A DNA stretch of 64,000 nucleotides, taken from NCBI GenBank assembly GCA_002256115.1, contig NKIK01000006.1, positions 1 to 64,000 on the forward strand. The letters run 5' to 3'. The notes under the pieces were generated by a model. The model worked only from the letters and a program-made list of their open reading frames with translations, made no database searches and had not been told where the DNA came from. The position numbers and the translations under genes are program-made. This document shows, in pieces, positions 836 through 20,910 of this stretch (positions are counted from its first letter, which is position 1; each line of letters starts with the position of its first letter). This DNA is from Burkholderiales bacterium PBB3. GTDB lineage: Bacteria > Pseudomonadota > Gammaproteobacteria > Burkholderiales > Burkholderiaceae_C.

Positions 836-1519
836 TCACAGCGGCACAAAAGTACGCACTGCAGTGCCCCCGCCAGGACACGCCGCACTAGTCCTTACTT
901 TTCCAGTAGTCGGATCACCATCGTCCAGGGCTCGATCCACATCCAGAACCACCTCACACGGCAAGTTGTAGAAAATAATCACATTGGGCACCGCCGGGTA
1001 TGCGTTGTTGTAGGCAATACTCGTATTGGCTGCGCTGCGAATCGCCATGTGGACCGGGCCAAACTGGGTTTGAAGCGGCTGCTGCACATTGGATCCGACC
1101 TTGCCGATCAGCCCCGCTTGGTAGAGCTGCTGTGGCGCTTGTCCGATTTCGTCGGCCGCGGTGGCCACGCCTGTGGTGACGCTCAGAGTACCCTCGATCA
1201 ATCCGTTGCCTATAGTACCCCCAGTGCCGCCAGCCCCAATGTTCGGAATCTGGTTGGCCACAAAAACCCAGTCGCCTGGCAGGTAACCGTATCGCTGTTT
1301 GAAAGTGACCGCAGCCGTTTGCAGATCACCCGCAATTTGAATCACATCTTGTGCCTGCGCACGGCTGATCTGACCGCGTCCGGCCATCAATCCTGCGGCC
1401 AGCAGAATGCCACCCAACACGATCACGATGGCCATCTCGGCCAAAGTGAAGCCCTGCTGGGCTTTCAAGGGAGTGCTCAAAGTTCGCATCGCTTTGATTG
1501 GTGCATCGTTTCTCATCAT
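836..1519 (-). CDS. Prepilin-like protein (minor pilin)
   Basis: A 227-residue protein with the prepilin motif QQGFTLAEMAIVIVLGGILLAAG, so cleavage after the Gly and N-methylation of Phe are expected. The sequence aaagga sits immediately upstream of two adjacent ATGs (1519 and 1516), which favours this start over the internal ATG at 1489 and implies a 22-23 residue leader, long but acceptable for the family. The segment RYGYLPGDW after the helix matches the 'pilin-like, G-D' region common in MSHA and type II secretion pseudopilins. It lies between two other prepilin genes and is probably a minor pilin of the same fibre. Confidence 0.87.
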   Translation of the reverse strand: MMRNDAPIKAMRTLSTPLKAQQGFTLAEMAIVIVLGGILLAAGLMAGRGQISRAQAQDVIQIAGDLQTAAVTFKQRYGYLPGDWVFVANQIPNIGAGGTGGTIGNGLIEGTLSVTTGVATAADEIGQAPQQLYQAGLIGKVGSNVQQPLQTQFGPVHMAIRSAANTSIAYNNAYPAVPNVIIFYNLPCEVVLDVDRALDDGDPTTGKVRTSAACPGGGTAVRTFVPL

Positions 1520-15987: not shown

Positions 15988-18867
15988 TTAGAGATTCGGG
16001 GCCAGCAGGCGCTGCAAGGCCGTCGCGTCCATGCCTCTGCGGCGGGCCAGATCTTGCAGCTGGTCGTCGCCAATCTTGCCGACGTTGAAGTAGGTCGCGT
16101 CCGGGTGGCCGATATAGAAGCCGCTGACGCTGGCTGCGGGCGTCATGGCCAGGCTCTCGGTCACACCCATGCCAATTTCCTCGCACTGCAGCAGTTTGAA
16201 CATGTCCAGCTTCACGCTGTGGTCCGGGCAGGCAGGGTAGCCGGGCGCAGGGCGGATGCCCTGGTACTTCTCGGCAATCAGCGCTTCTGGCGTGAGCGCC
16301 TCACTCGGGGCATAGCCCCACAAATCGGTGCGCACGCGGTGGTGCAGGCATTCGGCAAAGGCCTCGGCCAGCCGGTCGGCAATCGCCTTGAGCATGATGG
16401 ATGAATAGTCGTCGTGTGCTGCCTCGAACGCCTGGGAGCGCTTGTCGGCACCAATGCCCGCGGTGACTGCAAACAAGCCCGCATAGTCCTTGGTTTCAAG
16501 GGTCAAATTGGCATTTGAGGCCGTGGATAGTGCGGGAGCAGCTCCTGGTTTGATAGCAGCACGGGGTGCCACAAAGTCTGCCAGGCAGCGGCTCGGGCGC
16601 ATCACACCGTCGATTTCCTGCTTCTCGGCTTGCTGGCGCAGGCCGTACCAGGTCAGTGCCACCTCCGTGCGGCTCTCGTCGGCGTAGAAGGCGATATCGT
16701 CGTCATTGACGCTGTTGGCCGGGTACAGGGCCACCACCGCGTTGGCGGTGAGCCAGCGGCCATCGATGATTTTCTTGAGCAGCGCCTGGCCGTCGGCCAG
16801 CACCTTCTGGGCCTCCACACCCACCACATCGTCCTTCAAGATAGCGGGGTAAGGCCCGGCCAAATCCCAAGTCTGAAAGAACGGGCCCCAGTCGATGTAC
16901 TGGGCCAACTCGGTCAAATCAAAGTTCTTGAACACGCGTCGGCCAATGAATTTGGGCACGGCAGGCTGGTAGTTAGACCAGTCGATGGGGGTCTTGTTAG
17001 CCCGCGCTTTGGCCAGCGGCCACAGCGGAATCTGCTTTTTGTTGGCGTGCTGCTCGCGCACCTTCACATAGTCGGCGTTCAGCTCGGCGATGTACTGGGC
17101 CGCGTTATCGCTCAGCAGGCCCTGGGCCACACTCACGCTGCGCGAGGCATCGGGCACGTAGACGATGGGGCCTTCATAGTGCGGAGAAATTTTCACTGCG
17201 GTATGCACCCGGCTGGTGGTCGCCCCGCCAATCAGCAAAGGCATTTTGCGCAAGCGAAAGTAAGCGTCCTTTTGCATCTCGCCCGCCACGTACTGCATCT
17301 CTTCCAGGCTGGGGGTGATCAGACCCGACAGACCAATGATGTCCGCCCCTTCGGCTTTGGCCATGGCCAAAATTTCATGGCAGGGCACCATCACGCCCAT
17401 GTTGACCACGTCAAAGTTGTTGCACTGCAGCACCACGGTAACAATGTTCTTGCCGATGTCATGCACGTCGCCCTTGACGGTGGCAATGACGATCTTGCCC
17501 TTGGCTTTGGCTTCGCCCCCGGCCTCGATCATGGCCAGCTTTTCGGCCTCGATATACGGCAACAAATGCGCCACGGCGCTCTTCATCACGCGCGCGCTCT
17601 TCACCACCTGGGGCAAAAACATCTTGCCCTGGCCAAACAGGTCACCCACCACGTTCATGCCGTCCATCAGTGGGCCTTCGATCACATGCAGCGGGCGGCC
17701 GCCCTTGGCCAACACGTCTTGGTAGGCCTCTTCGGTGTCCTGGGTGATGAAGTCGGTGATGCCATGCACCAGCGCGTGGCTCAGGCGTTCGCCCACCGTT
17801 TTGGGGGTCTCGGGCGTGCCGCGCCACTCCAGCTTTTTGCTCTCGTCCTTGGCACCGCTCTTGGCGGTCTCGGCGATCTCCACCAGGCGCTCGCCCGCGT
17901 CGGCACGGCGGTTCAGCACCACGTCTTCCACGCGCTCGCGCAGCACCGGCTCCAAGTCGTCGTACACGCCCACCATGCCGGCGTTGACGATGCCCATGTC
18001 CATACCCGCCTTGATGGCGTGGTACAGGAACACGGTGTGAATCGCCTCGCGCACCGGGTCGTTGCCGCGGAAACTGAACGACACGTTGGACACACCACCG
18101 CTCACCTTGGCCCCTGGCAAGTTCTCCTTGATCCAGCGCGTGGCGTTGATGAAATCGACCGCGTAGTTGTTGTGCTCTTCAATGCCGGTGGCTATGGCGA
18201 AGATATTGGGGTCGAAGATGATGTCTTCGGGCGGGAAACCCACCCCACCTTGGTCAACATCCGCCACCAGAATGCGGTAGGCGCGCTCGCAGATTTCCAC
18301 CTTGCGCTCGTAGGTGTCGGCCTGGCCTTTTTCGTCAAACGCCATGACCACGGCGGCGGCACCGTAGCGGCGCAGCAGTTTGGCCTGGTGCTTGAAGGGC
18401 TCTATACCCTCTTTCATGCTGATGGAATTGACCACCGCCTTGCCCTGCACGCAGCGCAGGCCGGCCTCGATCACGCTCCACTTGGAGCTGTCGATCATGA
18501 TGGGCACGCGCGAAATATCGGGCTCGGAGGCGATCAGGTTCAGGAAGCGCACCATGGCGGCCTGGCTGTCCAGCATGGCCTCGTCCATATTAATGTCGAT
18601 GATCTGCGCGCCGTTTTCCACCTGTTGGCGGGCCACGGCCAAGGCCTGTTCAAACTCGCCATTCAAGATCATCCGGGCGAAGGCCTTGGAGCCGGTGACG
18701 TTGGTGCGCTCGCCGATATTGACGAATGTGGCTCTGGGGGACAGACCTTCAGCTCTGTCCTCCGCTGAATAGATGGCACCGATGACAACCGGTTCCAGCC
18801 CGGACAACATCATGGGCGCAACAAATGGGCGGACTGCTTGTGCAGTTTTGGCGGGGGTTTGGGGCAT
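15988..18867 (-). CDS. metH: Cobalamin-dependent methionine synthase, C-terminal part (pterin, B12 and activation modules)
   Basis: A 959-residue protein covering modules 2-4 of MetH. It starts with the pterin-binding barrel ([29 protein letters not shown]). A cap/B12 domain follows with the cobalamin ligand motif [10 protein letters not shown] and [12 protein letters not shown], then the AdoMet activation domain ([33 protein letters not shown]). The homocysteine domain is absent and is encoded separately at 19650-20744. The start at 18867 has the Shine-Dalgarno AGGTGAG just upstream and follows an SAH riboswitch. A family A repeat is read in frame at about residues 770-783 ([15 protein letters not shown]), between the B12 and activation domains, so the enzyme carries a repeat-derived linker. 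Confidence 0.95.
16519..16557 (+). repeat. Dispersed repeat family A, copy 2 (inside metH)
   Basis: The plus strand reads ggccgtggatagtgcgggag followed by cagctcctggtttgatagc. This is a complete family A copy lying antisense inside the metH reading frame without disturbing it. It encodes a 13-residue, Ala/Pro-rich stretch between two folded modules. Confidence 0.92.
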
Positions 18868-18870
18868 AAA

Positions 18871-18970
18871 CTCACCTGAAATGAAAGGCAACAGGTGAGC
18901 GTCGTTGCGAGGGTGCAAGCACCCGGTCCAAGCCTGACAAACCGCTAGGGTCTGCTGCAACGCTCCTTGG
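18871..18970 (-). promoter_or_regulatory. SAH (S-adenosylhomocysteine) riboswitch upstream of the large metH gene
   Basis: On the minus strand CCAAG (18966-18970) pairs with CTTGG (18928-18932) to make P1, and GAGCGT (18960-18965) pairs with ACGCTC (18897-18902) to make the pseudoknot. The conserved GGAGCG-TGCA and CAGGCTTGG elements of SAH riboswitches are present, with an extra hairpin GGGTGC-TT-GCACCC at 18911-18924. The 3' pseudoknot strand continues as CTCACCTG (18892-18899), exactly complementary to CAGGTGAG (18871-18878), the ribosome-binding site of metH. SAH binding would favour the pseudoknot and release the ribosome-binding site. The class assignment is from recognised consensus; the switching model is inference. 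Confidence 0.9.
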
Positions 18971-19060
18971 AAACCCGATTTTACGGGATATCCTTTTGAA
19001 AACAGCAAAGCGCAGACCAGCAGAGCTTCCTAAAATGGCAGATTAACACCGGCACACACC

Positions 19061-19630
19061 ATGAAACCCTCGCTTCCTTCGGCCGACTCTCAGGATGCTT
19101 TTGAGCGGGCGGCAGAACTCCTCACTGCGCCCAACGCCCTGGTCCGACTGGCGCTGGAGGAAGCCCGTGTGGTGGTGAGCTATATGACGCCACGCTTTAT
19201 CGCCGCAGACACCACCTTTATTCGCGAAGGCGATGCGGGCGATGATGGTTTTATGGCCCTGCTGCTGGAGGGCGAGGTGGTGGTGGAAACCATCACCGTG
19301 AGCCGCACCGAGCCGCTGACCATCAGTGTTTTAGGGCCAGGCAGTTTGTTGGGGGAGGTGGGCTTGATCGACAAGGAACCCCGCTCGGCATCCTGCACCG
19401 CCAGCACCGACGTACTTTGCGCCATTTTGACGCGCGAGGCCCTGGAGACCCTGATCCAAGAGTCCCCCTCCATCAGCGCCAAACTGCTACTGGCCATTTC
19501 GGCCAAATTAGCGGAGCGGCTGCGCGACAACGCCCGCAAGCTGCGTTTGTATGCCAAATTGGCCAAGGCCATGCACCAGGAGCTGGCGCATTACTCCCAA
19601 GAGGCGCTACGCCCCAACATCGGCCGGTAA
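19061..19630 (+). CDS. Cyclic-nucleotide-binding domain protein
   Basis: A 189-residue protein with a single Crp-like cNMP-binding fold (about 40-150: FIAADTTFIREGDAGDDGFMALLLEGEV, LGPGSLLGEVGLIDKEPRSASCTA). There is no DNA-binding HTH after it, only a helical tail, so it is not a Crp/Fnr transcription factor. The phosphate-binding cassette GEVGLIDKEPRSAS is close to the functional consensus GE-x-A/G-L...RSA, so nucleotide binding is plausible. It is transcribed against both metH genes and separates them. Role unknown; a link to methionine metabolism is not shown by the sequence. Confidence 0.85.
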   Translation: MKPSLPSADSQDAFERAAELLTAPNALVRLALEEARVVVSYMTPRFIAADTTFIREGDAGDDGFMALLLEGEVVVETITVSRTEPLTISVLGPGSLLGEVGLIDKEPRSASCTASTDVLCAILTREALETLIQESPSISAKLLLAISAKLAERLRDNARKLRLYAKLAKAMHQELAHYSQEALRPNIGR

Positions 19631-19649
19631 AAAAACGGCCTGGCGGCAA

Positions 19650-20744
19650 CTAGGCTGCTTCCGCGTTTTCCACGTCTTCCTTGTAGAAGAAATTGCGCTG
19701 CAAAGAGCGCGCCGCCATCGGATGCACCGCATCGCTGATCGCGCGAATGTGGTCCGGCGTGGTGCCGCAGCAGCCACCCACAATATTCACCAGTCCTTCA
19801 GCCGCAAACTCGCGCACCAGTCGGCTGGTCACGTCGGGCGTTTCATCAAAGCCGGTATCGCTCATGGGGTTGGGCAGGCCCGCGTTGGGGTAGCAGCTGA
19901 TGTAAGTGTCCGTAGCCACCTTGTTCAGCTCCTGGATATAGGGGCGCATCAGCGTGGCACCCAGCGCGCAGTTCAGGCCAATGGCCAGCGGGCGCGAATG
20001 GCGCACGCTGTGCCAGAAGGCCGTGACGGTCTGACCGCTCAGGATGCGACCGGAGGCATCGGTCACCGTGCCGCTGATGATCAATGGCAGGCGCTCGCCG
20101 CTGGCTTCAAAGTATTCGTCAATCGCAAACAGCGCCGCTTTGGCGTTCAGGGTGTCAAAGATGGTTTCCACCAGCAGCACATCGCTGCCGCCTTCCACTA
20201 GCGCCTTAGTCTGGTCGTAATAGGCAGCACGCAGCTCTTCAAAAGTGACATTGCGCGCGCCGGGGTCGTTCACATCAGGACTGATGCTGGCCGTCTTGGG
20301 CGTGGGGCCCAGCGCACCCGCCACCAAGCGGGGTTTGTCGGGCGTGCTGAATTTATCGCAAGCCGCGCGCGCCAACTGTGCGGAAACCAGATTCATCTCA
20401 ATCGCCAAGTCAGCCATGTCGTAGTCGGCCTGGGCCACCGTGGTGGCACCAAAGGTGTTGGTCTCGATCAGGTCCGCACCGGCAGCCAGGTAGCGCTCAT
20501 GGATGTCGCTGATGACATCCGGGCGGGTCAGGCTCAGCAGTTCGTTGTTGCCTTTGACGTCGCGGTGAAAGTGCGTGAAACGCTCGCCCTGCGCGCCCGG
20601 GCCGGTGTAGCCCGCGCCGCGGTACTGGGCCTCGCCCAGCTTGAAGCGCTGGATCATGGTGCCCATAGCGCCATCCAAGATGGCAATGCGATTGGCCAAA
20701 ATGCCGGGAAGGGCTTGTCCGCGGGTGTATTTCAGGGGTGTCAT
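19650..20744 (-). CDS. metH: Methionine synthase, homocysteine-binding module
   Basis: A 364-residue protein equivalent to the N-terminal module of MetH (homocysteine S-methyltransferase barrel). It shows [31 protein letters not shown], the first zinc Cys in GLNCALGA and the pair [10 protein letters not shown] that completes the zinc site. Split MetH with this module as a separate polypeptide is familiar in betaproteobacteria. The start at 20744 is chosen because upstream codons lie inside a riboswitch. It would act with the 959-residue protein encoded at 15988-18867. It converges with the cNMP-binding gene, with 19 bp between the two stops. Confidence 0.94.
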
Positions 20745-20750
20745 AGGCAG

Positions 20751-20847
20751 GCTCAGCTTGTAGTGATTCACAAGTGAGCGCGGTTGAATTCCCCAAGCCT
20801 GACTAAACCAGCGATTCATCGCCGGAGCAGCTGCAGCGCTCCTTGGG
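20751..20847 (-). promoter_or_regulatory. SAH riboswitch upstream of the homocysteine-module metH gene
   Basis: On the minus strand CCCAAG (20842-20847) pairs with CTTGGG (20792-20797) for P1, and GAGCGC (20836-20841) pairs with GCGCTC (20776-20781) for the pseudoknot. These pairs differ from the other copy by compensating changes. The conserved GGAGCGCTGCAGC and GTCAGGCTTGG elements are intact. After the pseudoknot, GCTCA-CTTGT (20770-20779) can instead pair with ACAAG-c-TGAGC (20751-20761), which lies directly before the start codon and includes the only ribosome-binding-like GAG. The same on-switch logic as the other copy is inferred. Confidence 0.9.
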
Positions 20848-20910
20848 AAGCCACTATTTTAATTCACAAACTGCAAAACTGCCGCGCGATCTCGGTCAGC
20901 ACCCACTGCG

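Follow-up and report, generated by a model that had tools for sequence, protein, structure and literature searches.

The DNA considered here, the window, is a stretch of 64,000 nucleotides from the genome of a relative of Rhodoferax and Curvibacter. In this genome methionine synthase is encoded by two separate genes, between which the Pfam domains of MetH are shared out. The gene metH-N (19650..20744, reverse strand) codes for 364 amino acids and carries the homocysteine S-methyltransferase domain (PF02574, 316.9 bits). The gene metH-C (15988..18867, reverse strand) codes for 959 amino acids and carries the pterin, B12 and activation domains (PF00809, PF02607, PF02310 and PF02965). Between the two halves lies an antiparallel gene, here called K (19061..19630, forward strand), for a cNMP-binding-domain protein of 189 amino acids (PF00027, 59.2 bits); a Pfam scan of K at E 0.001 yielded no further family. 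Gene K, which is divergent from metH-C, recurs beside metH-C in many relatives.

Jointly, the products of metH-N and metH-C match the classical MetH model NF007024 (1234 positions) from end to end, metH-N covering positions 9-338 and metH-C positions 343-1229. Taken alone, each half stays below the whole-protein cut-off of 1497 (505.4 for metH-N, 1455.2 for metH-C), as is expected of halves. The model TIGR02082 (cut-off 1010.85) is passed by metH-C (1146.1) and not by metH-N (455.6). The NCA, GGCCG and DVHDIG motifs are present in the two halves. Both look intact and seem to be parted by a cut in the linker; from their domains, the two products are predicted to act as one enzyme. The only match to the catalytic domain of MetE (PF01717) in the same genome is a frame of 346 amino acids consisting of that domain only (locus L168, G000:C15:7994-8980(-)).

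Each half has its own leader, and each leader contains an aptamer of the SAH riboswitch family RF01057. The aptamer of metH-N occupies 20769..20850 (reverse strand; 49.5 bits, E 4e-06), that of metH-C 18890..18974 (reverse strand; 56.0 bits, E 1.2e-07). The gathering score is 37, both matches span model positions 1-78, and an Rfam scan of the window at gathering score matched nothing besides these two elements. They lie about 1.9 kb apart, on two separate genes, and each is placed as the leader of a SAM-cycle gene, with 22 bases between aptamer and ATG in metH-C and 24 in metH-N. The longest open reading frame of metH-C begins above its aptamer (TTG 19008) and that of metH-N inside its aptamer (ATG 20819). 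The true starts are most likely the ATG at 18867 for metH-C and the ATG at 20744 for metH-N; they lie just below the aptamers, and relatives have the same starts.

The family's P1, P2 and pseudoknot can be recognised in both leaders. P1 reads CCAAG/CTTGG in the C leader and CCCAAG/CTTGGG in the N leader. The pseudoknot of the C leader is formed by GAGCGT (18960..18965) and ACGCTC (18897..18902), that of the N leader by GAGCGC (20836..20841) and GCGCTC (20776..20781), all on the reverse strand. In the N leader the CTC of the 3' strand also opens a strand able to hide the ribosome-binding region, and in the C leader the CTC is likewise common to such a strand. The Rfam alignments contain a few non-standard pairs, in P1 of the C leader and in P2 of the N leader. 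A sequence-only reading of this DNA had named P1 and the pseudoknot of both leaders as diagnostic of SAH riboswitches; these helices are indeed there, and the covariance model, which that reading had proposed as a check, places both leaders above its gathering score. The idea that one of the two matches is due to chance was rejected, as both exceed this score and have counterparts in relatives.

The same reading had further taken compensating changes between the two leaders as evidence for both. Such changes turn out to be general in the relatives. All six pairs of the pseudoknot are formed in each of the 92 metH leaders compared (33 N and 59 C, the latter including one, L111, near a contig end, with its metH-C outside the stretch), G-T being counted as a pair and the strands being located in model-found leaders by motif patterns that allow two substitutions, which biases the count towards conserved strands. 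The last pair is T-A in 52 leaders, C-G in 33 and T-G in 7. Nearly all N leaders (31 of 33) have C-G there, and most C leaders (52 of 59) T-A; the strands themselves read GRGCGC/GCGCTC in 31 of 33 N leaders and GAGCGT/ACGCTC in 51 of 59 C leaders. Family score, structure and covariation, that is the evidence of sequence, identify both elements as SAH riboswitches of the known class. Binding of SAH by both leaders is putative and follows from family membership. Where the discrimination of the class is addressed in the literature, SAH is preferred over SAM about 1000-fold (PMC11188199, PMC7367207).

How might the aptamers act on their genes? In both leaders a hairpin can be drawn that would hide the start site, i.e., a proposed OFF hairpin. 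In metH-C (18871..18899, reverse strand) it pairs CTCACCTG with CAGGTGAG of the ribosome-binding region (-11.7 kcal/mol, z -4.17, equalled by 0 of 200 shuffles). In metH-N (20752..20778, reverse strand) it pairs CTCACTTGTG with TACAAG-c-TGAG (-8.8 kcal/mol, z -2.46, equalled by 4 of 200 shuffles), and folding yields ten pairs and one bulge. The same hairpins recur when the whole leaders are folded; these folds, which are computed without pseudoknots, are modestly better than those of shuffled sequences (z -1.11 and 19 of 200 as good for C, z -2.27 and 4 of 200 for N).

Among the relatives, the eight pairs of the hairpin are complete in 46 of the 59 C leaders; the count is seven or more in 57 of these 59, and in 13 of 33 N leaders. 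The mean number of pairs is 7.27; it falls to 5.24 when the downstream bases are shuffled and to 5.96 when the strand is reversed. These figures are to be read with the fact that the 3' end of the aptamer itself resembles an anti-Shine-Dalgarno sequence, which means that some pairing with the ribosome site is built in. When strands and sites were swapped between the two types of leader, counting Watson-Crick pairs only, C strands paired better with their own ribosome sites (7.66) than with N sites (5.69). No N-specific compensation was seen in this control: N strands made 6.54 pairs with C sites and 6.15 with their own. The OFF hairpin is well supported for the C leaders and moderately for the N leaders.

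The proposed mechanism is simple. Without SAH, the strand right after the pseudoknot (CTCACC/CTCACT...) would pair with the ribosome-binding region. Once SAH is bound, the pseudoknot would be locked and would occupy the CTC of that strand. As the CTC is common to the hiding strand and the pseudoknot, SAH binding should free the start site. From this anatomy, each leader is most likely a translational ON switch for its own gene. In work of Wang et al. in 2008, the SAH riboswitch class reportedly activates genes. A high level of SAH would mean that homocysteine is on its way, and both halves of methionine synthase would then rise together.

Might the switches act on transcription, by termination or by Rho, instead of on translation? 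The class may well know that route: in one genome of the genus (G046), a terminator-like hairpin whose tail is rich in T follows, by eye, the first of two tandem aptamers before ahcY. Also, the absence of the C switch from co-directional gene clusters (see below) would fit a control that reaches downstream genes. Yet a scan revealed no terminator-like site between either aptamer of the window and its start codon, the distance from aptamer to ATG is just 22 and 24 bases, and the partner strand of the hairpin is the ribosome-binding region itself. Control of transcription is thus considered quite unlikely. As to the transcription of the halves themselves, no sigma-70-like promoter was detected between 18800 and 21100 (0 found, 0.4 expected), and their separate transcription therefore rests on gene orientation. 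The metH-N gene could be co-transcribed with the gene for a solute-binding protein above it.

A different doubt concerns the pair as such. Only one of the leaders might be functional, the other being a relic or an inactive copy. The candidate would be the N leader, whose hairpin and ribosome site are the weaker ones: hairpins of at least seven of eight pairs occur in 13 of the 33 N leaders, the N ribosome site of the window looks weak by eye, and in the genome G066 the N expression platform is interrupted by an insertion-like stretch bounded by terminal inverted repeats. Against this stands that the pseudoknot is fully paired in every one of the 33 N aptamers, despite their sequence differences, and that in 14 genomes the N leader is the sole metH leader. 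We regard a single functional leader as very unlikely. The stretch in G066 deserves a word of its own. It lies between 391 and 683 of locus L129 in the expression platform of metH-N, resembles a MITE with long terminal inverted repeats, and widens the gap between aptamer and start to 291 bases, versus 24; it amounts to a natural disruption. With two aptamers at their places, the separate tuning of each half by the same metabolite, as suggested by the sequence-only reading, is supported by position and family membership, and that the paired switches would keep the MetH subunits in step is plausible.

The distribution of the leaders was surveyed in 103 genomes of the genus, 48 of which have metH-N and 51 metH-C at E 1e-100; at least 99 of the 103 have an SAH match. 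For the scan of the metH stretches of these 48, a model was made from 28 SAH elements, among them the two of the window. The N leader is present in 34 of the 48 (in G029 by a match cut at the contig end), absent in 13 and undecidable in one. Eighteen genomes, the present one included, have both leaders, 14 the N leader only, 10 the C leader only and two neither, while in four one side is unseen. When the 14 N-only loci were scanned permissively with Rfam, each yielded a single SAH element, which was the N leader; the locus of G017 yielded none.

Outside the genus the picture is different for the two leaders. A set of 80 further loci comes down to 67, all from other relatives, once 13 that duplicate genus rows are removed. 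None of the 67 has the N leader. The C leader is there in all 29 loci whose stretch includes metH-C, the remaining 38 being covered on the N side alone. In a sample of 90 genomes from the order, 75 have a metH-N match, which in 66 lies in a frame of 1227-1337 amino acids, i.e., in an undivided metH. By frame length, a divided metH seems to exist also in at least four other families of the order (f10, f17, f32 and f39). Out of 24 order members outside the family, 19 have both an SAH match and a metH-N match. In these 19 the SAH match is never near metH: in nine the two are on different contigs, and in the ten with both on one contig they are at least 34 kb apart. By its sequence, the N leader appears to be a type of its own that is found in one genus only.

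The descent of the N leader can be approached by trees. On the metH-N tree, the N-leader label changes seven times, at least four of these changes being forced by starred branches; the C-leader label also changes seven times. A tree of 116 aptamers, which is built on few columns and weakly supported, separates the metH leaders from the genus's own ahcY leaders; N and C leaders are also separated from each other, but for a few cases (L108_C falls among the N leaders, and the ahcY leader of an order member, G043, among the C leaders). A single clade of all N leaders (p-AU 0.73) and a clade of N plus C (p-AU 0.67) are both compatible with the data, without proof of either. In no genome were the two metH leaders seen to group together; there is therefore no sign of recent copying inside the locus.

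Two candidate origins were rejected. A recent duplication or gene conversion between the leaders of the window is at odds with their nearest neighbours on the aptamer tree, which are G085_N for the N leader and G087_C for the C leader. A derivation of the N leader from an ahcY leader of the genus was dismissed too: eight ahcY leaders have CGAG/CTCG in P1 and GCAGTTC in P2, and N and C leaders mostly share CAAG/CTTG.

The N leader could also be the ancestral metH switch, lost in most relatives and not gained in the genus. The seven label changes, at least four of them forced, tell us that losses or transfers did happen, and the N leaders of distant branches have one sequence type in common. The count of zero among the 67 loci of other relatives, however, speaks against such an ancestry, as does that of zero among the 19 order members for any SAH match near metH, and we consider it unlikely. 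The preferred reading of the sequences is that a metH-type leader was copied to metH-N long ago and that losses or transfers followed. The C leader is the wider-spread and probably the older one, and the N leader, a related type, is probably a copy of a metH-type leader. The N leader of G074 differs most in sequence and is perhaps a separate gain.

The presence of the C leader seems to go with how the genes are arranged. Where genomes with an N leader have an antiparallel K before metH-C, all 15 have the C leader as well; in 12 of these K lies between close halves, in two metH-N is far off, and in one it is on another contig. Where the halves are co-directional or adjacent, the C leader is present in 2 of 16. 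Genomes without an N leader have the C leader in seven of seven cases with K between the halves and in three of four with adjacent halves. These counts leave out G080 (halves 9.4 kb apart, both leaders), G100 (N start missing, C leader present), G102 (halves on different contigs, neither leader) and the genomes with one side unseen. On raw counts, the link between switch and arrangement has a Fisher probability of 5e-7. Starred branches reduce it to four independent pairs, of which three agree, one shows no difference and none opposes (p 0.25); with the genomes lacking an N leader added, two to three of five pairs agree and again none opposes.

The co-directional loci have a further trait in common. 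A gene for a Gfo/Idh/MocA oxidoreductase, assigned by a family scan of the copy in G071, is present in 14 of 16 and lies on the metH strand in all 14, strands of intervening genes being set by homology. From its aligned end to the start of metH-C there are 32-53 bases in the 12 loci without a C leader and 150-157 in the two with one. In 8 of the 14 loci another gene of about 200-240 amino acids, on the metH strand too, is found above it. The locus of G072 looks intermediate: the N leader, metH-N and the Gfo/Idh gene are followed by K and the C leader.

Across a small number of independent events, there seem to be as many switches as transcription units. Most co-directional loci under an N leader lack the C leader, and the pair of leaders therefore seems to reflect two transcription units, not a need for two sensors as such. 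There are exceptions. Two co-directional loci have both leaders (G087, G062), two genomes have neither (G017, G102), and three with adjacent halves have the C leader only (G063, G090, G103). In the latter three (L157, L160 and L148, respectively) the roughly 68-165 bases between metH-N and metH-C are filled by the SAH element, as if a switch had been placed at the domain cut. In G090, a frame of 1312 amino acids with one TAG is seen at the metH-N match.

The overall explanation, to which we assign a probability of roughly 80%, is that the two leaders are SAH riboswitches of the known class and translational ON switches, present twice for the sake of two transcription units. There would be two switches because the halves form two such units, parted by the antiparallel gene K, as their orientation suggests. 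Where N and C are made co-directional under the N leader, the C leader would mostly be absent, having probably been lost.

SAH riboswitches of the genus are not confined to metH. The third SAH match of the present genome precedes ahcY, followed by a TlyA-like gene (170.2 bits, below the cut-off of 185.8). A gene for betaine-homocysteine S-methyltransferase is present in 47 genomes of the genus (E 1e-100), and in at least 28 of them it is preceded, at a distance of 36-84 bases, by an SAH riboswitch, e.g., at L164:1063-1151(-) in G034. The identity of the enzyme is backed by NCBIfam PRK07534 (467.8 bits for the copy in G002, cut-off 338). None of these 28 genomes has a metH half at E 1e-100, many of the genomes being incomplete. 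Four genomes have metH together with the betaine-homocysteine methyltransferase gene; in three of them the SAH matches are elsewhere, and the fourth, G067, is outside the matches listed. Four aptamers of this group were placed on the tree and nest among the ahcY leaders of the genus. Judged by sequence, betaine-homocysteine methyltransferase is likely a new target of the SAH riboswitch.

A tandem arrangement was observed in G046 (contig C93, locus L166), where two SAH aptamers precede ahcY at 1113-1184(-) and 963-1050(-). By eye, the terminator-like hairpin after the first one, which has a T-rich tail, overlaps the pseudoknot strand, and the second one is followed by an apparent ribosome-binding site. 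Perhaps this tandem exerts joint control of transcription and translation.

Part of this is already known, namely the riboswitch class and metH as its target in Comamonadaceae. The aptamers of the window do not differ from the RF01057 class: sequence core, P1, P2, pseudoknot and the placement before a SAM-cycle gene are the same. What differs is their number: the locus has two, and each half of the divided enzyme has its own. Leyn et al. 2014 (PMC4239095), in their account of the Comamonadaceae regulon, list MetH and COG1189 as SAH riboswitch targets and ahcY and metF as its core; that an SAH leader stands before metH, which the sequence-only reading took as established, is thus on record. The passages on this regulon make no mention of a split metH, of two metH leaders or of betaine-homocysteine methyltransferase as a target. 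Sun et al. 2013 (PMC3766115) dealt with SAH riboswitch regulons as well, and the word metH is absent from the main text.

Related arrangements exist elsewhere. In Xanthomonas, according to the relevant section of the same regulon study (PMC4239095), the co-located methionine synthase genes metH1 and metH2 are likewise under one methionine-cycle regulator, SamR; there, however, control is through a site for a transcription factor in the upstream region that the two genes share, whereas here each gene has its RNA switch. Phaeobacter inhibens also has a split methionine synthase with separately encoded parts (Price 2018, via PMC12478193). As described in that secondary source, its parts are not simply separated from a classical MetH (PMC12478193), while the two genes here match the classical model end to end. 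Tandem aptamers such as those of glycine riboswitches, in outline at least, also bring two aptamers for one ligand to one locus; here the two are on two genes. A search of the open literature, with most subscription papers and supplements outside its range, yielded no description of a divided metH with two SAH leaders and, within the same limits, none of a betaine-homocysteine methyltransferase gene preceded by an SAH riboswitch. Neither the arrangement of one switch per half nor its distribution among genomes appears to have been described.

What, then, may the arrangement mean? Tentatively, and with rather less confidence than for the explanation above, we propose that in this genus the SAH aptamer follows the step of homocysteine methylation: the units that make a methyltransferase part, i.e., the MetH halves when they are apart and betaine-homocysteine methyltransferase when MetH is absent, would carry their own copy and drop it on merging, and the paired copies would set the ratio of the halves by parallel sensing. 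The close relatives offer a natural series of loci with the C leader only, with both, with the N leader only and with neither, in which it can be studied how riboswitches are copied, kept and lost as genes part or join. The findings also point to betaine-homocysteine methyltransferase as a likely new SAH riboswitch target. Finally, the same series lets one ask whether having the sensor twice keeps the parts of an enzyme balanced.
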